64,000 bases of DNA, taken from contig PYIU01000003.1 in NCBI GenBank assembly GCA_003415625.1, positions 4,650,001 through 4,714,000 of the forward strand, given 5' to 3'. The position numbers were made by a program, and so were the translations under genes. This DNA is from Aquanectria penicillioides. Lineage: Eukaryota; Ascomycota; Sordariomycetes; Hypocreales; Nectriaceae. The notes beneath the pieces were generated by a model that saw nothing but the letters and a program-made list of their open reading frames with translations, was not told where the DNA came from and ran no database searches. This document shows, in pieces, positions 418 through 39,899 of this stretch (position 1 is the first letter of the stretch; each line of letters starts with the position of its first letter).

Positions 418-569
418 CGACACCTGCAGGATTCGAACCTACGCGTGCGAACACAATGCCTGGAGCGCTATGGATAATACTGAATGGGGTGTTAGTTGGA
501 GTTGATGACACGTTGACTACGTAGATGAACTTACGCAGGGCATCGCCTTAACCACTCGGCCAAAGTGTC
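418..569 (-). tRNA. tRNA-Ser-like gene with GT-AG intron, apparent anticodon GCG
   Basis: The acceptor stem pairs over 7 bp, the A box TGGCCGAGTGG and B box GGTTCGAATCC are intact, the variable arm is long (GTG-TTCG-CAC) and the discriminator is G; together these are serine-tRNA features. The anticodon stem is ATGCC/GGCAT. The anticodon loop is split: the 5' exon reads ...CTGC, followed by a non-exon stretch at 460-534 (75 nt) that starts GTAAGTT, has CTAAC (491-495) and ends AG. A conventional intron after position 37 gives loop CTGCGTA and anticodon GCG with U37, odd for any tRNA. Removing the GT-AG segment would leave a 5-nt loop. A T5 terminator follows. The gene is clear; the mature form is not. 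Confidence 0.75.
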
Positions 570-730
570 TTCTTCGGTGGCAAACTTGACTGTTAGCCAT
601 GTATATATTGCTGCAGCCATATTCCTTCGCCAAATAATTGCTTCATGGGCCAAACCTGACCCATCAAATACCGCAAAGATCTTGCGAAGTGGTAGTAGGT
701 AAAAATATAAGAGGCAAAAAGATACTGTAA

Positions 731-880
731 CGACACCTGCAGGATTCGAACCTACGCGTGCGAACACAATGCCTATCGGCTATTTATAATACTAGGGGTT
801 GTTAGCGGAAAACTCCTGAGACATTGAATCATCATGGGAACTCACGCAGGGCATCGCCTTAACCACTCGGCCAAAGTGTC
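731..880 (-). tRNA. tRNA-Ser-like gene with GT-AG intron, apparent anticodon GCG (copy 2)
   Basis: Both exons are identical to the copy at 418-569. The intron (773-845, 73 nt as GT-AG) shares no obvious sequence with it apart from GTGAGTT at its start, GCTAAC (core 801-805) and terminal AG. A T5 run follows the 3' end. Same strand as the previous copy, about 160 bp away. The long variable arm and G73 indicate SerRS charging; the anticodon assignment has the same problem as in the first copy. Confidence 0.75.
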
Positions 881-9050: not shown

Positions 9051-9468
9051 TGTGATGAGCGTGGCTATTTCAAGAGCTGGTAGGAAGGAGGCCTTGGAGG
9101 AGAGGGAGATGGAGATTGCTGAGATGTTGTGGTGGCGTGCGGTATCCTGAATTGCAGCCTTCTCAGAGTGGTTGCGTGGGCCAATGGATTAGCGGTAATG
9201 ACCCCACCCTGACGTTTTGGCCGATACTGGCGCAAGCTGTTGTGACTCCAAGGACCGTGAATTCTACATGGCGGCTTCAACTCTCTCCCGCGCCCACACT
9301 CTTGTCCTTTGCCTGCCTCGTAACGCCGTGGCCTAAAAAAAGGTCTTCTCAGTCACCTGGGTACATGCCATGGTTGTGAACATTCTGAAAAGAGGGTAAA
9401 TCCCTTAAACTCATAGACCCTGAGTCTCTATCTGCCCTGCAACGCCCGTACGGACCTCATCGTTCACC
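9051..9468. promoter_or_regulatory. Bidirectional promoter region, NAA38 / RAD2
   Basis: 418 bp between two divergent start codons; any core elements for both genes must lie here or upstream of short 5' UTRs. No specific factor site is claimed. Confidence 0.5.
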
Positions 9469-12400
9469 ATGGGCGTCAACGGCCTTTGGACTGTGGTGCA
9501 GCCATGTGCGCGACCAACGAACCTGGCGACTCTTAACCGTAAGCGACTGGCTGTAGATGCATCTATTTGGATCTACCAATTCCTCAAGGCTGTGCGCGAC
9601 AAAGAGGGAAACGCGCTACGCAACTCCCACGTTGTGGGTTTCTTTCGTCGCATTTGCAAGCTGCTCTGGTTCGGAATCCTTCCAGTCTTTGTTTTTGATG
9701 GAGGTGCCCCAGTTCTCAAGCGACAGACAATTCAGAACCGAAAGCGAAGACGGGAAGGTCGCCGAGAAGATGCCGTGAGAACCGCGGGCAAATTGCTCGC
9801 CGTACAAATGCAGCGCATCGCAGAGGAAGAGGATGATAAGAGGAGAAGAGACAAGAATCGAGATGTCGCAGCCAGAGAAGAAGAACAACAAGAGGAGATC
9901 CCGGATGCAAGTCAGTTTGTCTATGTCGCGGAAGAGGACATGACCCAGAGAGAACGACTGCAAAACAGGAAATTCCATAAGCAAGATGCCTATCATCTAC
10001 CTGACCTTGATGGTGGTGGCATTGCCGCAATGGGCAAGCCAGACGACCCACGAATCATGAGTGTCGAGGAGTTGGAAGAATATGCACGGCAATTCCATGC
10101 TGGCGAGGACATCAATTTATACGACTTCAGCAAAATCGACTTTGATGGTGAATTCTTCAAGAGCCTCCCCCCACCAGACCGATACAATATCCTCAACGCC
10201 GCGAGATTGAGGAGTCGACTGAGAATGGGTCTTAGCAAAGAACAATTGGATGACATGTTTCCTGACCGAATGGCCTTCTCCAAATTTCAAATCGAAAGAG
10301 TAAAAGAGAGAAACCACTTGACTCAACGTCTGATGCTTGAAGTCGGAATGACAGGCACAGACTTGACCCTTGGTGTTAATGGGCGAATTGCTGGAGAAAA
10401 GAATCGAGAGTACATCTTGGTGAAAAATGATGGCGTTGAGGGAGGCTGGGCCCTAGGTGTTGTGAGCAAGGAAAAGGACATTGGCGAGGCTCATAAACCG
10501 ATCGACGTCGATGCAATCCAAATTGAATACCAATCCAAAGAAGCCGATGACGATGACGACGACGCAGACTTTGAAGATGTTCCCATCGAGGGACTGAATC
10601 GATTGCCAAAGCCATCTGCAGCTACTTTGGCTAGTTTGCAAGCGGCCCATGATATCGCAGCGCGACGACAAAACTTTTATGACGGCCATCAAACTGAGCG
10701 TACTGTTGGTGAAGAAGGGTCGCTATTCGTTGGCGATAACCTTGGGGATGTGGATGATCTCATCAATGCCCAGACAGAAGAAAGACTACACGCAGAGGAA
10801 GAGAATGATCTCAACCGTGCCATTGCTCTTTCATTGCAAAATCAACATGGCGTGGGGAGGAAGCTGGAGGTCGAAGAGCAATTGGAGGAAGTTTCACTGG
10901 ATGAGCCGAAATGGAACCAGAAATCTGTCGAGGCCCCCAAGCCCATCGCAAACGCTGGCGGTTCCATGATTGCTCATATTGTAAACAATCGGGCGAATGC
11001 AGCTGTTGCAAAACGTCAGGACCGAGGATATCCTACCGCTGATGCAAGCGACAGCGAAGAAGATATGCAAGCCATTATGGCGAGGTCGAGACGGATAAAG
11101 AAACCCCAGCCGGCACCAATTGTAGAAAACAAGAAGAACCCCTTTGATGGCCCATTGCCTTTCCCCAAGCTTGACTGGGGATCCTCTATCTTCGCAAAGA
11201 AGACCCTCAACAAGGAATCGAAAGGCGCTTCAAATGATACGAAGGCTATAGAGTCTGAGGTGTTTGAAGACGAAATGGCTGGAGGCTTTGAAATGGAGCC
11301 TGAAAGGAACGACGGCCCACAGCCTCTTCCCCCCTGGTTGACCGATGAGAGTGATATCAGAGACTCTTTGAAGAAGCAACAAGAGGTCGAACGAGAAATT
11401 AACGCCGAGGATAGACTTGCCGCTGAGGAAGATGAGAGACTTCGCCAGCGAGCGATGCAAGATCGATTGATCGAGATTGATTCCGGATCAGATGATGAGA
11501 ACGAAATCCAAATCATTGAGATCCCACCATCACCTGAGAAACCTTCCGAGAATACCCCAATAATGGTCAACGATGGGCAATCTGAAACACACTCTTTTTC
11601 AGCTGTTATGTCTGGTCCAGCTCAGCCCCCAACATATGACAGTGCGCGAGGGCCCACGTCAACCGAGTCACCTGAACCAGAATTTGAAGAAGTCCTAGTT
11701 GGTGCCTCCATTTATAGCGAACCTGGTGCCCTGCCAGGTGACAAACAGACATCGGATTCACCCGAGCCTGTGTTTGAAGATGTTACCATGGAACCATCTC
11801 TGGAACTCGCTCGCAAAAGCCTGTCTCCTGCGTTTGAAGACGTTCGGGGCTTGGATATCTCAATAGGGAATGGGATACAGAAAGGCTCTGGTCTCGATGA
11901 CGATGAGCTATTTGGCGACATTGAGGATGATGAATTTAGTGATCCCGGAGATGAAGAGCTTTTGGCTCAAATGGCCGAGGAAGCCGAGGAACATGCTCGA
12001 TTTGCTAGTGAACTGAATAACAAGTCCGCGGTGCAGAACAGAGAGGATTATGAGACGGAACTACGCGCTCTTCGAAACCAGCAAAAGAAGGACCGCCGGG
12101 ATGCTGATGAAGTTACCCAAGTCATGATTACTGAATGTCAGGCCCTCCTCCGTCTGTTTGGTATTCCCTACATTACCGCTCCCATGGAAGCTGAAGCACA
12201 ATGTGCGGAGCTCGTTCACCTGGGGCTTGTTGATGGAATTGTGACAGACGACTCTGATATTTTTCTGTTTGGTGGAACCCGAGTGTACAAGAACATGTTC
12301 AATGGCAACAAATTTGTTGAGTGTTACCTCGGCGTCGATCTCGAGAAGGAGCTGTCCCTTTCCCGAGAACAACTTATTTCTTTGGCTCAACTACTCGGCT

Positions 12401-13122
12401 CCGATTACACCGAAGGGCTCCCTGGAGTCGGTCCTGTCACTGCAGTCGAGATCTTATCCGAGTTTCCGGGTAAGACTGGCCTGGTCAATTTTCGCGAATG
12501 GTGGCAGTCAGTACAATCCCAAAGCCGACCAAAGGAAGCTGACGCGTCATCGACCTTCCGAAAGAAGTTCCGAAAGTCGCAAGCCACCAAACTATTCCTG
12601 CCACCAGGTTTCCCAAACCCGGCTGTCTACGACGCGTACCTCCAACCCGAAGTTGATAACAGTGCAGAGCAGTTCCAATGGGGCGTTCCAGATGTGGAAG
12701 GTTTGCGGCAGTTTTTGATGGCTACGATTGGGTGGAGCAAGGAACGAACAGACGAAGTGCTGGTGCCCGTGATTAAAGATATGAACAAAAGGGATCGCGA
12801 GGGTACCCAAGCCAATATCACAAGGTTCTTTGGGGGCAGCGTAGGGGTTGGCGCAAAAGAAGCATTCGCACCACGACAAAAGGCCCAGGGCAGCAAACGA
12901 ATGGCAGCGGCTGTGGACAGATTGAGAGCGAATGTTGCCGGAGAAGGGTCATCAACTGTTGAGGATGCCGAAGCTGGTACTGGAAAGCGAAAACGAGTGG
13001 CAAGGAGAGAAGGTAAGGAGGCAGACGGAGATGGTGATATTGAAAATGAAGATGACGGGGAAGGAGAGGCACCAACACGAAGAAACCGGGGCAAGGGGAA
13101 GCGAACCAAGGCGACAGTGTAG
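9469..13122 (+). CDS. RAD2: DNA repair endonuclease Rad2/XPG (Rad13)
   Basis: Single exon, 1217 aa, starting MGVNGLWTVVQPCARP. The XPG N-domain fills about residues 1-100 (VDASIWIYQFLKAVRDKEG; FVFDGGAPVLKR). A long acidic spacer of some 750 residues follows, the mark of XPG/Rad2 against FEN1 or EXO1. The XPG-I domain lies near 885-935 (ITAPMEAEAQCAELV; TDDSDIFLFGG), with the conserved acidic metal ligands, then the helix-two-turn-helix (LLGSDYTEGLPGVGP) near 970-985. The spacer carries a ubiquitin-interacting-like segment (LNRAIALSLQ, about 443) and the C-terminal part a PCNA box QANITRFF (about 1113), then basic NLS-like runs. Rad2 makes the 3' incision in nucleotide excision repair and works with TFIIH. 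Length and domain order match the family. Confidence 0.97.
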   Translation: MGVNGLWTVVQPCARPTNLATLNRKRLAVDASIWIYQFLKAVRDKEGNALRNSHVVGFFRRICKLLWFGILPVFVFDGGAPVLKRQTIQNRKRRREGRREDAVRTAGKLLAVQMQRIAEEEDDKRRRDKNRDVAAREEEQQEEIPDASQFVYVAEEDMTQRERLQNRKFHKQDAYHLPDLDGGGIAAMGKPDDPRIMSVEELEEYARQFHAGEDINLYDFSKIDFDGEFFKSLPPPDRYNILNAARLRSRLRMGLSKEQLDDMFPDRMAFSKFQIERVKERNHLTQRLMLEVGMTGTDLTLGVNGRIAGEKNREYILVKNDGVEGGWALGVVSKEKDIGEAHKPIDVDAIQIEYQSKEADDDDDDADFEDVPIEGLNRLPKPSAATLASLQAAHDIAARRQNFYDGHQTERTVGEEGSLFVGDNLGDVDDLINAQTEERLHAEEENDLNRAIALSLQNQHGVGRKLEVEEQLEEVSLDEPKWNQKSVEAPKPIANAGGSMIAHIVNNRANAAVAKRQDRGYPTADASDSEEDMQAIMARSRRIKKPQPAPIVENKKNPFDGPLPFPKLDWGSSIFAKKTLNKESKGASNDTKAIESEVFEDEMAGGFEMEPERNDGPQPLPPWLTDESDIRDSLKKQQEVEREINAEDRLAAEEDERLRQRAMQDRLIEIDSGSDDENEIQIIEIPPSPEKPSENTPIMVNDGQSETHSFSAVMSGPAQPPTYDSARGPTSTESPEPEFEEVLVGASIYSEPGALPGDKQTSDSPEPVFEDVTMEPSLELARKSLSPAFEDVRGLDISIGNGIQKGSGLDDDELFGDIEDDEFSDPGDEELLAQMAEEAEEHARFASELNNKSAVQNREDYETELRALRNQQKKDRRDADEVTQVMITECQALLRLFGIPYITAPMEAEAQCAELVHLGLVDGIVTDDSDIFLFGGTRVYKNMFNGNKFVECYLGVDLEKELSLSREQLISLAQLLGSDYTEGLPGVGPVTAVEILSEFPGKTGLVNFREWWQSVQSQSRPKEADASSTFRKKFRKSQATKLFLPPGFPNPAVYDAYLQPEVDNSAEQFQWGVPDVEGLRQFLMATIGWSKERTDEVLVPVIKDMNKRDREGTQANITRFFGGSVGVGAKEAFAPRQKAQGSKRMAAAVDRLRANVAGEGSSTVEDAEAGTGKRKRVARREGKEADGDGDIENEDDGEGEAPTRRNRGKGKRTKATV

Positions 13123-13388: not shown

Positions 13389-13524
13389 CGACACCTGCAG
13401 GGATCGAACCTGCGCCTCCGAAGAGACGGCCTATCAGACAGTCGACTTGTTCTATCTCAATTAAGGACAGAACGCAAACTGATTCTGTAGCAGGGCCGCG
13501 CGTTAACCACTCCGCCAAAGTGCC
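13389..13524 (-). tRNA. tRNA-Ser(GCT) with canonical intron
   Basis: Acceptor stem GGCACTT/AGGTGTC with discriminator G, D arm GCGGAGTGGTTAACGC, anticodon stem CGGCC/GGCCG, long variable arm with a TTCG loop, and B box GGTTCGATCCC. The loop reads CTGCTA + A with anticodon GCT and A37; the intron (433-487 within 13433-13487, 55 nt) sits after position 37 as expected. It is a normal serine tRNA and the natural comparison for the odd family at 418, 731 and 13695. Confidence 0.88.
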
Positions 13525-13694: not shown

Positions 13695-13841
13695 CGACAC
13701 CTGCAGGATTCGAACCTACGCGTGCGAACACAATGCCTTGATATGCATGATACTGTGTGAGGTTAGTGGGAGTCACTTGTGGATAGTTGGTATGAGAGAA
13801 ACTTACGCAGGGCATCGCCTTAACCACTCGGCCAAAGTGTC
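13695..13841 (-). tRNA. tRNA-Ser-like gene with GT-AG intron, apparent anticodon GCG (copy 3)
   Basis: Exons are identical to the copies at 418-569 and 731-880, 13 kb away. The intervening segment (13737-13806, 70 nt as GT-AG) starts GTAAGTT, has CTAAC (13762-13766) and ends AAG, and is otherwise unrelated to the other two introns. A T5 run follows the 3' end. Neighbours a genuine tRNA-Ser(GCT) 170 bp away on the same strand. Identical exons beside diverged introns imply selection on the mature RNA or recent gene conversion. Confidence 0.75.
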
Positions 13842-26243: not shown

Positions 26244-29200
26244 TTACGAGGATGCCGACAGAGGCTTCGTAGCAAGTAGGCTAGTAACCTTGTAGAACAT
26301 ATCCTCAATAGGCGGCGCCGCAAATGCTGGAGCAGCATCGAAGATGTCAGCAAGATGCTGCTGATGGACGACACTCCTCTGCACGTCGTCATCTTCCATC
26401 TCAACATCCTCTGCATCTGGAGCAGCCTCCGTGGCCTCTTCCGCTTCACTCGCCATGTCTTCATCCTCGTCCTCGCCAAGAAGAGAAATCTTCTTGTCGT
26501 TATCGACGCCATCGGAATCCTCAAGGCGCAGGTCCTCAAGGGGCTGGACAGTTGCCAAGGACGAAGGATCAGATCCTTCCGCGACAACCCAAATCTGAGC
26601 GGCGTCATCCAGGGCGATGAACCCGCTGGTATCCGGCGCAGATACAAGGCTGACTACCCTTTGAGGAGTGTTCCGCACCAATAGTGGCTCCGAGTCCTCC
26701 GGTTCAAAGACTCCCAAAGTAGAGCCCTCATTGGATGGCAGGGCCACGGCAAAGTGTCCAGAAGTGTGGTCCACAGCTAGCTGTACCAGGTCGTTGCTGC
26801 CGGCATTCTTGGGGATCAAAACGCCGTAGCGCAACTCATCGCTGACAACATCGTAAACCCGGAGCTCGTCAGACAAGACAATGACAAATGGCGATAGCGC
26901 ACGAACAGAGCGGAGCTGGCCCTTCCATTGGCCTTCTAGTGTCTTGACAATCTCTCCTGATGCCGCATCAATCACGTAGACAGCCCCGACGCCAACAGTT
27001 CCAAAGGCAACAAATAGGGTAGAGCCATCTTCAGAGAAGGCCAGGCTTCCCTGAGGCTCGTGCTTGGCTGTTGGCTCAGGAAGATCCACAGTGCCCTCTT
27101 GAGGAAGGCCATCGCCGACAGCAATTACCTGCGAGCAGCTCCAACTGAAAACCTCTCGTCCATTCGTGCCCTTGACAACAACGCCATTTTGTGATCGAGT
27201 TTTAGGTCTCCACAAGCGAACCATACCGTCGGTTCCAATTGTTGCGAAACATGTGGAGACTGGGTTTGAGGCGAGATCGAGCACCGCCTCGTTGCGGGTA
27301 GTTGCGTGAGGGGCATTGATTCTAGAAGCAAGGGCGATCTGATCCTCGCCTTGTCGGGCCTCCCAGAACTTTAGGTAGACCTCACGCCGCTCCTTGATGA
27401 ACTGATCCTTGAGGTCATTCAAGACATTGTCAACATCTCGTGGCGAAGGCTCCCAAGTATCAACACTGGCGAGCCACTCTCCATCAGCAGAGAAGGCCAT
27501 ATGCGTAATCGCCGGCTCGTCAATGGGGTTTCCCTTGTTCGTTATGTTGACATCAGTTGGTTGAGTGCGAGCCAAGGCCTGCTTGGACACGCTTCGGAAA
27601 GTCTCTAGATCAAAGGTCTGTAGCAAGGGGGCGGAAAAGTCTCCAGAAGAGCTGGCCTGGCTACCATTACCGACACATACGTGCAATCTTGAGTGATCCG
27701 AAGGCCTAATAGCAGCTGGAATGGGCCGTCGAACGGACTGGGGTGCAGTCCAGGTTCGCTGAACGAGCAAATCCTTGGGGCAGGAAACGTGGACTGCAGC
27801 AGACTGAATGCCGGCAATGTATGCCGTAGGCTTCATCTCAGAGGTGGACAGAACCATAGTTGAGTTATCATCCAAATGGACCACATATGAAGATCCATCA
27901 GCGGAAACGACGATGTTCTCTACGCTGCCAGAAAGATGAGGGAGGAAGTCTTTTCTCGAAGTGTCCATCTGCCAAAGAACAAGAGAGTTTTCAGAGCCTC
28001 CAGAAATCATGTAGTGACCTACTCAGGTTAGTTTTGCTTAAAACGTGGCGAATGCAGCACATACCGTCTCGGGACCACTTGAGGGCATGCACAGCTTTTC
28101 TGTGCCAGTGGTACTTTTGGGCCTGGATCAGCTCCTTGTCGGAGCCCACCTTGCCAAGGCCCTGAATTCGGGCAAGAACATCGTGATACAGGTAAATAGA
28201 ACCACGAGCACCGCCAACGATAATGTCAACAACAGGTGTAGGGTCTGATCGTGCCTTCTTGCCGCTCAGTGGTCTTGAGTGCATTCGAACATCGAGTGCT
28301 GTGACGAGATCGGGAACATCGAATGAGTAGATTTCGTACTCGAGTCCTGCCAAAGAGTCGGCTGGTTTTTGTGTCGGAATCCCCATGAATAGACGGTCGT
28401 TGATAGCACCGACAAGAACCTGGCCGTCTTGGCTAGACACCAGCAGCTGCAATCCGTTGCCAGGCTTCTTCATTGCCATGACGACCTTGGGCTCGGTTTG
28501 GGACTGTGTGATTCCATTGTAGGCAACGATTTCGATTCGGCTCGACTTATCAGACTCGGCGACCAGCAAAACCTCTTCCATCTTGTTGGCGATCTTGGCC
28601 TCGAGGACGACTAAAGCCTTAGCCGTTCCAGATCGTGTTTGGAAGGACTCGGGGGACTGGGTAGCTGTCCAGTTGACATGAAATACGCGACCATCTGAGC
28701 AGGCCACCCAGACGAAGTCAGGGCTCTGTTTTGAAAGTCCGGTAGCGACAATGGTCGCTGCTGCTGACGGCTTTTGCGTAGAGGAGTTGACAACGGTTAT
28801 GGGGATTCGACGAACTAACAACGAGTCCGTAGCCGAGTAAACTTGAATCGAAGTGTTGTAGGCCAGGATAAGATATCTAAGGCAAATCAGACCAAGAACC
28901 CTCGTGGTTAGTTCTGTGGGCGCTCACCGTTCATCCTCAGTAAGAATAGGATCAATGTCCAGCATCCTTCCGCCCATAGGCTTCGATACTCTCCATCCTG
29001 CTTCACCATTATCGAATTGTCGAACAATTTCCAGCTCTCGATCTCCAGTAGCTTCTAAGGCTGTTGACAGCCCGTTCGCTTCCGAAAGCGCACCATTCTC
29101 CACGTTCAGAGGATCAGCAACCGATTTGCGCCCATTGGCCTTGTTCTCTTTCCGTTCAGCGCGCTGTCGCTTCGACCTCGAATCCGCTTCCGCAAGGTCT

Positions 29201-37420: not shown

Positions 37421-39899
37421 ATGGCCCTCGAAGCTCCCCTAAGGTCATCGACTGGAAACCTTCAATTCCCGTTTCCCTATCAGAGAGATATGGCTGCCCC
37501 CTCAGAAGTTGACCGTCTTCGGTCCCCATTCAGGGTCGTGTATGTTGGCTCGTTTTCAAAATATCTTTTTCTCGGAGCTCTGAAGACTAACTCTTTTGCT
37601 TAGCTCCTCTCCTCCTGCAGTTACCGACTCATCCTTGCGTCCTAATTCCGTCAATCGAATGTCCGCCAACTCTATCAATATTATGAGCCCGAGCGATATT
37701 GTCGGTCCTTCACCGGTGACGTCGAATGGGACTGAGACGACAGAGATTGAGGATGATGTCTCGGAAGATGTTCATCGAGAAACCACAAACGGCCTCACAT
37801 CCCGTCGCTCCGAGGTCAGTAAACTATCCTCGCCATCGCGACAATGAGATTCCCAACTAACATAGCTTGCAGCTTCTGATGCTTTCCACCAACATACCCG
37901 ATAATATACGGCAGGCCAACAGCGAGGAGGCCATCTCTGTTATCCATGCTCCCGAGAGCTTTGCTGCCTGGGTACGATATCATTGCCTCAGTTTATGGAA
38001 TCTCGAAACTGACACCGAGTAGGCCTCGTCCGAACCTATTGTCAAGCAGCATGATCCTAGCCCAAGGTCATCACCTAAGGCAGATCCCGCCAGTCTAGCC
38101 GCACTCAATGGTGCCTCTGATAAAGTAGCTAACCCTCGGGATCTTTTTTTTTTCTCTCTCTCTTTCACTCATCGCTAACTGTTGCCCATCAGTCGTCTGT
38201 ACAGCCAGCACGTCCTCCGATTTCTACCGATGTCAATCCTGTGCGATATAATCTGGACAATTCTACGCCTCGTGCCCAGGATCTGCAGTCTATGCTTGAA
38301 GATGGGGTTCGTCTACGATCAAGCAGTACCAGCAGCCTTGAGAGTAAGTCGGTTCGAGCGTGAACAACGAAAACCTCTACAAGAAGAGCTTTTAGCTAAC
38401 GAGAGATTAGAAATCGAAGAACAGACCGAAGCCGAGGGCGATGACGAAGAGTATGCCTCTGAGATTATGCCAATGCCCCTAGAGCAAGACGAGATCTCGG
38501 CTTTGCGAAGCGCCCTGCAAGAATGTTGGACTTTGTGCAACACGCTTGCCAACTTGAGCTCCATTCACCGGGCCCGAGTATTCAGCACTTCCGGCATTCC
38601 AGATGCCCATGAAAAGGCCTGGAAGACATGTTGGAAGCTGTGCCAACGTCTTTATGACAATCGTGACGAAGATGCAACCTCATTCAGTGTCAGATTGAAC
38701 CTCGATCTTTGTCGAGACTTTTGCCAGGCCCTTTTTGATGTCCGCGAGCGAAAGGATGAGCTTGCAGACTCAGTTTTGCGAGTTAGCTTTGAACTGAATA
38801 ACCAGTAAGTGTGCTCGTTCATCAATTCAGTTGCGTATGCTAACATTGCCACAGCCTATACAGTGCTCAAGACAGCCGGAATCTCCCAGAGCAGTTCAGG
38901 GAGAGAACCTTGGATTTCTATATTACCTTATGCCATCGTCTCATGAAGCAGCGCATCAATTTGGAAGAGGAAACTGATCAACTACTCCGGGCATGTTGGG
39001 CGCTGGCAGAAATGCTCTTCAACATTAGACAAAACAAGCGAGATGGCAGACCCCCAGACGAAGAGCTGCTGGGCTCCGCAGTTCAAGCATGTTGGGATCT
39101 TTGCGACATTTTCAGAGACGGTTGGACCCAAGTTCGACCCGATAGAAACACTCCACGACCCAGCCAGACCAGTTTTCCGCACCATCAAATCGATCAGAGC
39201 GGCCGCCAAAGCCAGGCATCGAACAGATCATCCATTCACTCCAAGCGGGAGAGCGTAAAGAGCGGCCGCCAAGAAGAGAAACCGAGAAAGCCTCTCCCAG
39301 TCCCCGAAACACCAGTGACTGAGTTCGAAGACACACCCATTTCCCCCCAAAGCCACTCACCCCAGATGCCAAACATCCTCGTTCTCGGAACACCAAGTGA
39401 AAATAGCCGAAGTGGACGATGGTCCAGCAGTGCTTCAAACTTGTCTAGTTATTCAAGGGGTAGCACGAAGACATCCAGCACTGCAACAACCACGGCTGCT
39501 TCGGAGGATGCAAATGTGATGAGAGCTAAGGTCCTTGTGGTCCGAGCCGCGATGAACCTCGGATTTGATCGTGACAATATCATTGATCCTAAGTCAGCAT
39601 CGGCGGCCCTTCAAAAGTTTGTACAGGACCTACCAGTCGGGTCCTTTGGAGCATCATCAGCCCATGCAACGCTCCTATCACAATACAAGAACTCGGTCCT
39701 CACGGACGCCATCATCCCTCGCCACCATGCTCTTCCCATTCGGGGAAAGCGAGTCTCGGCTCACGAAATGGCGAAGAGCATCCACACCATGATTAGGAGT
39801 TCGCAGAGGTATTCGTATCTCCGTGAGCTCTTCCGCTTCGTTTTCCAGTTTCCATTGGAGGAGGTGGAGACGCGACGAAATGTTAGCATCGTTGTGTAG
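37421..39899 (+). CDS. Fungal protein of unknown function with repeated Cys-Trp helices
   Basis: Seven exons: 37421-37539, 37604-37814, 37873-37971, 38023-38124, 38193-38343, 38411-38804 and 38855-39899; 706 aa, all phases consistent, introns with GTATGT/GTAAGT starts and CTAAC-like branches. A Ser-rich N-terminal third (about 1-230) and an acidic stretch are followed by a helical core with recurrent units ECWTLC (about 265), TCWKLC (301), LDLCRDFC (326), ACWALA (406) and ACWDLC (437). A Ser/Thr/Pro-rich linker follows, then a conserved-looking C-terminal domain (about 575-706: KVLVVRAAMNLGFD; LRELFRFVFQFP). No signal peptide or membrane segment. I cannot name the family. Preceded by an unusually long gene-free region. 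Confidence 0.85.

Follow-up and report, generated by a model that had tools for sequence, protein, structure and literature searches.

Four tRNA-Ser genes are split inside the anticodon, and very probably their transcripts pass through two splicing machines. Specifically, the spliceosome would remove an intron of 52–55 nt to give tRNA-Ser(GCU), and the tRNA endonuclease would then remove an intron of 12–16 nt after position 37. A tRNA-Arg(ACG) gene of the same genome has an insert with GT-CTAAC-YAG signals in its D loop. The sequence is best read as showing natural tRNA genes that contain spliceosomal introns, at two positions and in two tRNA families, with a tRNA-type intron in addition in the serine genes. 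The split serine genes had been noticed in an earlier sequence-only reading. That observation is confirmed and proves stronger than stated, while its interpretation as an abnormal GCG isoacceptor is most likely wrong.

Results

Organization of the split tRNA-Ser genes

The window, namely the whole 64-kb stretch of DNA that was analysed, contains three complete copies on the minus strand, which are matched by the Rfam tRNA model at 418–569 (copy 1, 42.2 bits), 731–880 (copy 2, 42.4 bits), and 13695–13841 (copy 3, 42.7 bits). Searches with each exon as query, allowing up to three mismatches, found four copies in the 53.8-Mb genome, each with 0 mismatches. Copy 4 (G000:C7:4649890-4650034, plus strand) ends in the window, where its final 34 nt, the end of the 3' exon, occupy positions 1–34; the remainder lies left of the window. 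The Rfam and exon searches agree with the sequence-only reading, which had listed two full copies, a third at 13695–13841, a 3' exon at 1–34, and identical exons. The genome-wide count that it had proposed comes to these four copies, and GTRNGT, CTAAC, and YAG are found in all of them.

The exons are 35 and 43 nt long and are identical at 78/78 nt in the four copies. The 3' exon contains the long variable arm and G73 of a serine-type body, as had been described, together with the B box. Seven genes with this serine 3' end were found, four split and three ordinary (window, C3, and C10). The ordinary tRNA-Ser(GCU) gene of the window (13389–13524, minus strand, Rfam 41 bits), used for comparison, is located 170 bp from copy 3, within the cluster of split genes. 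Its loop is CTGCTA/intron/A, and its tRNA-type intron of 55 nt is the longest among the 25 ordinary tRNA introns examined, which span 10–55 nt.

Between CTGC and GGCAT, the four copies contain 74, 72, 69, and 67 nt, respectively. The insert had been given as 75, 73, and 70 nt in the window copies; it is real, with one base fewer in each, because the earlier intron was ended at the last AG. The sequence after C35 consists of two inserts. The first, between positions 35 and 36, is 55, 54, 54, and 52 nt long in copies 1–4; the second, located at 37/38 by position in 4/4 copies, is 16, 15, 12, and 12 nt long.

In copy 1, the 5' exon (535–569; positions 1–35, ending in CTGC) is followed by a predicted spliceosomal intron of 55 nt (480–534; GTAAGT...CTAAC...CAG), by the anticodon base U36 together with A37 between both introns (478–479), by a predicted tRNA-type intron of 16 nt (462–477), and by A38 with the 3' exon (418–461). 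Copy 2 has the same arrangement, with the 5' exon at 846–880, a predicted spliceosomal intron of 54 nt at 792–845 (GTGAGT...CTAAC...TAG), U36 and A37 at 790–791, a predicted tRNA-type intron of 15 nt at 775–789, and A38 with the 3' exon at 731–774. The corresponding elements of copy 3 are located at 13807–13841, 13753–13806 (54 nt; GTAAGT...CTAAC...CAG), 13751–13752, 13739–13750 (12 nt), and 13695–13738. All of these elements are on the minus strand.

The A box TGGCCGAGTGG and the B box GGTTCGAATCC are intact in the split genes, and a T5 stretch is located at most 15 nt downstream of all four. Copies 1, 3, and 4 have a TATA-like sequence some 30 nt upstream, which copy 2 lacks. Because the A and B boxes are intact and T5 terminators are in place, the split genes are probably transcribed by RNA polymerase III.

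Spliceosomal signals in the first insert

The first insert begins at the exon junction with GTAAGT, GTGAGT, GTAAGT, and GTACGT in copies 1–4, so that GTRNGT describes the donor in 4/4 copies. The GTRAGTT start reported earlier holds for the three window copies and fails for copy 4 (GTACGTT). A CTAAC branch site is present in 4/4 copies. Its earlier placement 25–31 nt from the 3' end had been counted to a later AG. The first AG past CTAAC is a YAG (CAG or TAG) 10–12 nt after the branch A, and it is followed by TA in 4/4 copies.

The probability that a GTRNGT start and a CTRAY...YAG/TA end occur by chance is 4.5 × 10⁻⁴, 1.3 × 10⁻⁴, 3.7 × 10⁻⁴, and 1.7 × 10⁻⁵ for copies 1–4, each value being the product of two rates from 20,000 dinucleotide shuffles each, with the first base kept; the copies are incompletely independent in these odds because copies 3 and 4 have the last 20 nt before GGCAT in common. 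Copies 1 and 2 share TTATNNATAGC. Other than that, the statement that the inserts share almost nothing is nearly correct. For the six copy pairs, 10–42 of 300 shuffles equal the real likeness of the intron interiors, which is near chance level, and any residual likeness is therefore slight. The 100-nt flanks align at an identity of 0.49–0.57, likewise near chance level.

The two signals, GTRNGT and CTAAC/YAG, are found together in 4/4 split genes versus 0/25 ordinary tRNA introns of the same genome, the latter being those among the loci cut out, for which the boundaries were assigned manually according to the standard positions of the loop. The earlier description of the insert as spliceosome-like, and as unlike the usual endonuclease pattern, stands. 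The idea that a likeness to GTRNGT and CTAAC is usual for tRNA introns in this genome was rejected on the same count.

The ITS region of the genome (L074) looks like that of Nectriaceae (Hypocreales). A benchmark is provided by 2022 mRNA introns from four species of Fusarium, another genus than the host. According to PMC5677156, they have a median length of 57 nt, the donor GTAAGT with A42/C32/T22 as the +4 base, a CTRAY branch site in 91%, and a pyrimidine before the acceptor AG in 93%. The length of the first insert, 52–55 nt, fits this median. The exon bases are less typical by the same source: the base before the donor is C, which is not preferred (17% in Fusarium), and the base past the acceptor is T, where Fusarium prefers a purine.

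A scan of the window with the Fusarium frequencies gave 20 candidate introns per 64 kb, versus a mean of 8.0 (range 1–13) in 30 shuffles, and three of the 20 are the tRNA-Ser introns. Two others are candidate mRNA introns that link long open frames. The one at 28019–28064 (46 nt) links frames of 286 and 591 codons, with its acceptor 9 nt after the branch A, and the one at 38805–38854 (50 nt) links frames of 208 and 348 codons, with a distance of 11 nt. The window also contains an open frame of 1232 codons at 9424–13122 on the plus strand, the N-terminal part of which we take to resemble XPG/Rad2-type nucleases.

By its donor, its branch site and YAG, its length, and the exact restoration of a functional sequence, the first insert has the features expected of a U2-type intron and is probably one.

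It might be argued that the genes form a dead or dying tRNA cluster, without expression and with intron signals that are remnants or accidental. The load could be borne by the three ordinary Ser(GCU) genes, and standard finders miss or misread the split copies. However, the four copies agree at 78/78 exon bases, whereas their introns and flanks are close to chance level, and for this reason the mature RNA looks as if it were under selection or homogenised. In addition, the A box, the B box, and the T5 terminators are intact and the splice signals are present in 4/4 copies, whereas loss would be expected in dead copies. We consider a dead cluster highly improbable.

Restored anticodon and predicted mature tRNA

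Removal of the first insert joins CTGC to TA, which gives C32, U33, G34, C35, U36, and A37, followed by the residual 16, 15, 12, and 12 nt and then by A38 and GGCAT. When both inserts are removed, all four copies give one 81-nt RNA, which ARAGORN reads as Ser(gct). The predicted mature loop is CUGCUAA, with anticodon GCU and A37, as in the three ordinary Ser(GCU) genes. The predicted mature RNA has the same length as these and is identical to them at 67–69 of 81 nt, and its ARAGORN score of 119.2 is close to their 119.6–120.7. Judged by body, length, G73, and the GCU and A37 of the predicted mature RNA, the split genes appear to belong to tRNA-Ser(GCU).

Standard gene finding gives a different picture of the unspliced genes. 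ARAGORN reads copies 1–4 as Glu, Arg, Asp, and Asp, the Arg call on copy 2 being gcg, and its bacterial mode finds 0 genes in the 64-kb window.

The call on copy 2 corresponds to an alternative in which the whole insert of 67–74 nt is one endonuclease intron after position 37. The product would be a serine-type tRNA with GCG and U37, and CGC/CGU would be read as serine; the abnormal GCG isoacceptor of the sequence-only reading rests on this one-intron reading. Site 37/38 is the usual site of nuclear tRNA introns, and the GCG product has a good fold and a high score (ARAGORN 115.1). On the other hand, an ordinary endonuclease intron should be free of splice signals, and here they are present in 4/4 copies versus 0/25 ordinary introns; the one-intron reading gives no role to GTRNGT, to CTAAC, or to the first YAG/TA, whereas use of this internal acceptor yields CUGCUAA, GCU, and A37. 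ARAGORN calls the other three unspliced copies Glu, Asp, and Asp, the A-I pair is missing in 3/4 copies, U37 is unusual in tRNA, and four expressed copies would be expected to cause wide mistranslation. The insert of the Arg(ACG) gene is also left unexplained. Taken together, this makes a single endonuclease intron very unlikely.

Least probable of all is a spliceosomal intron that extends to the last AG and leaves a 77-nt non-decoding tRNA-like RNA whose loop has 5 nt. In 4/4 copies, an AG before GCAT does close the insert, but an earlier YAG lies 10–12 nt past the branch A, comparable to the distances in both mRNA controls (9 and 11 nt), and the product lacks a normal loop, is read with a four-base anticodon, and has the lowest ARAGORN score of the three readings (102.2). 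The suggestion of a tRNA-derived non-decoding RNA, made together with that of the GCG isoacceptor and likewise based on a one-intron reading, loses its ground with it. A third suggestion, that of a tRNA processed by an unexpected route, agrees with the GT-CTAAC-YAG signals and the restored Ser(GCU) loop, which point to removal of the first insert by the spliceosome.

The residual intron at 37/38

With the first insert taken out, copy 1 is read by ARAGORN as Ser(gct) with a 16-nt intron, and in total the program agrees on a residual intron at 37/38 for 2/4 copies. Once-spliced copies 3 and 4 are not read as Ser; ARAGORN calls them Asp(atc).

The residual introns of copies 1 and 2 begin with TTAT, like the intron of L039, the ordinary Ser(GCU) gene on C10. 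They also contain ATAGC, which is complementary to the restored GCUAU and not to the unspliced loop; ATAGC is absent from the residual introns of copies 3 and 4. The A-I pair, formed by C32 with intron base −3, is present in 1/4 residual introns, that of copy 2, versus 22/25 ordinary tRNA introns. Three of the 25 ordinary introns are without the pair as well, one of them in an ordinary Ser(GCU) gene. In L039 (G000:C10:1315104 region), the intron ends in AAA before A38, and the A-I pair is accordingly missing, as it also is in three split genes.

The second intron is thus not a fully typical member of the endonuclease introns: it has the 37/38 position, and the A-I pair is missing in most copies. 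According to a review (PMC4090602), the eukaryotic endonuclease finds its site by measuring from the tRNA body and does not strictly depend on helices formed by the loop with the intron. The genome contains two tRNA_int_endo domain matches. Judged by these features, removal of the second intron by the endonuclease is plausible, and it is the weaker of the two proposed steps.

An Arg(ACG) gene with an insert in the D loop

That the GT-CTAAC-YAG inserts of tRNA genes are genuine introns in this genome is supported most strongly by a tRNA-Arg(ACG) gene, L049 (about G000:C1:7582864-7582990, minus strand). It counts as independent support because it needs no reading of the serine loop. Its D loop runs GGTCGCGTGGCCCAATGG, then 55 nt (7582918–7582972) with GTATGT...ACCAACTAACAGCTCTCACAG, and then continues with CAAGGCGTCTGACTACGAATCAGG. 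The insert has the signals GTATGT...CTAAC...CACAG, and the A box ends just before it. The D loop is not a site of ordinary nuclear tRNA introns.

A pattern search gave ten Arg(ACG) genes, and the nine besides L049 are uninterrupted. Without the insert, L049 is identical at 72/72 nt to seven of these nine; the other two differ at 2 and 3 positions. A T6 stretch is located downstream. ARAGORN reads the spliced gene as Arg(acg), with a score of 117.4, and misses the unspliced gene, or calls it Cys when introns are allowed. Rfam misses it at the curated cut-off of 29 (25.1 bits). The border of the insert is ambiguous by one base, with a G on either side, so that GT-AG is one of two choices, and the chosen YAG, 12 nt past the branch A, is preceded by an AG directly after CTAAC.

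The genome was screened with a pattern that places CTAAC 25–86 nt, or CTGAC 25–55 nt, before an exact GGTTCRANYCC box. A first CTAAC screen gave 34 matches, of which 30 loci were tested for a donor and a first YAG and four were judged by eye; in a further CTAAC screen, 8/8 loci were tested. Among these 38 tested CTAAC loci, the four Ser genes, L049, and one more locus, L106, passed. L106 lacks an A box and is taken to be an mRNA intron. The CTGAC screen gave 11 matches, for which the matched stretch alone was inspected visually. In the genome-wide Rfam search, 63 of 2343 candidates were scored.

Discussion

Proposed order of the two splicing steps

In the proposed pathway, RNA polymerase III would make the split tRNA-Ser precursor, and the nuclear spliceosome would remove the 52–55-nt intron, which joins G34-C35 to U36-A37 and completes the anticodon GCU. 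The tRNA endonuclease and ligase would then remove the 12–16-nt intron after position 37, and SerRS would charge the product, which would read AGC and AGU. SerRS recognises the tRNA body and the long arm, not the anticodon. The spliceosome would have to act before the endonuclease, because a first cut by the endonuclease would fall within the 5' splice site (CUGCGU/RAGU) and leave the anticodon GCG. Such an order would fit a spliceosome that works in the nucleus and an endonuclease that acts later. As three ordinary Ser(GCU) genes exist in the genome, the four split genes may be dispensable.

Relation to known systems

Like nuclear tRNA introns of the Sen/TSEN type, the residual intron of 12–16 nt is located at 37/38; unlike genes with these introns, the split Ser genes have an extra GT-CTAAC-YAG intron within the anticodon, at 35/36. 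Reviews describe tRNA splicing as independent of the spliceosome. In the literature searched, which lay mostly outside subscription journals, spliceosomal introns were not reported for any natural nuclear tRNA. Scans of prokaryote and viral contigs with the exact pattern gave 0 matches, as expected, and are uninformative on fungi.

Koehrer, Vogel and Domdey (EMBO J 1990) reportedly found that the spliceosome can splice an engineered yeast tRNA precursor with a pre-mRNA intron. That precursor was a construct, whereas the genes described here form a natural family with a second, tRNA-type intron.

According to the authors of tRNAscan-SE 2.0, a eukaryotic tRNA gene has at most one intron (PMC8450103), though two or three are known in nucleomorph tRNA genes (PMC4090602). 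The split Ser genes resemble the multi-intron tRNA genes found in nucleomorphs, red algae, and archaea in having more than one intron and unusual positions. In contrast, the introns of those genes are credited to splicing of the endonuclease type, and the parts of PMC4090602 consulted mention no spliceosomal signals.

A small structured RNA that is transcribed by polymerase III and has an mRNA-type intron is known from fission yeast, namely U6 snRNA, and the intron of its gene is thought to come from reverse splicing (PMC10484740). U6 is a part of the spliceosome, whereas the hosts here are tRNAs, with two families and two positions. Both U6 matches in the genome analysed here look uninterrupted.

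Implications

If the proposed pathway is correct, the spliceosome would complete the anticodon of a natural tRNA, the product of the split Ser genes. Splicing capacity would then limit how much of one serine tRNA is supplied, and a polymerase III transcript besides U6 would be a natural substrate of the spliceosome. L049 and its seven intronless paralogues, which are identical to the spliced form, are a clean case of an intron in a single member of a non-coding gene family, in which intron gain via reverse splicing could be tested.

A further-reaching model can be proposed, although we regard it as unlikely. In it, 4/7 Ser(GCU) genes and 1/10 Arg(ACG) genes would need the spliceosome, and the order of the two machines would set the meaning of the serine product, either a GCU tRNA-Ser or a Ser-charged GCG tRNA acting at CGC/CGU. 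Splicing capacity would then tune the decoding of AGC/AGU together with a switchable Arg-to-Ser mistranslation.

Genes of this kind fall in a blind spot of annotation, as the Rfam cut-off misses L049 and the unspliced Ser genes are assigned incorrect isotypes by ARAGORN.

Two minor observations concern other RNA-like loci of the genome. At G000:C13:2564182-2566098, six tRNA-like sequences are clustered within less than 2 kb on both strands; on visual inspection they read as Glu(CTC), with short variable introns. At G000:C1:2946650-2946770 (L075), a second and shorter match to 5.8S rRNA, at 85.6 bits versus 171.5 for the main one, is located on a different contig from the latter, and it is perhaps a degenerate piece of rDNA.
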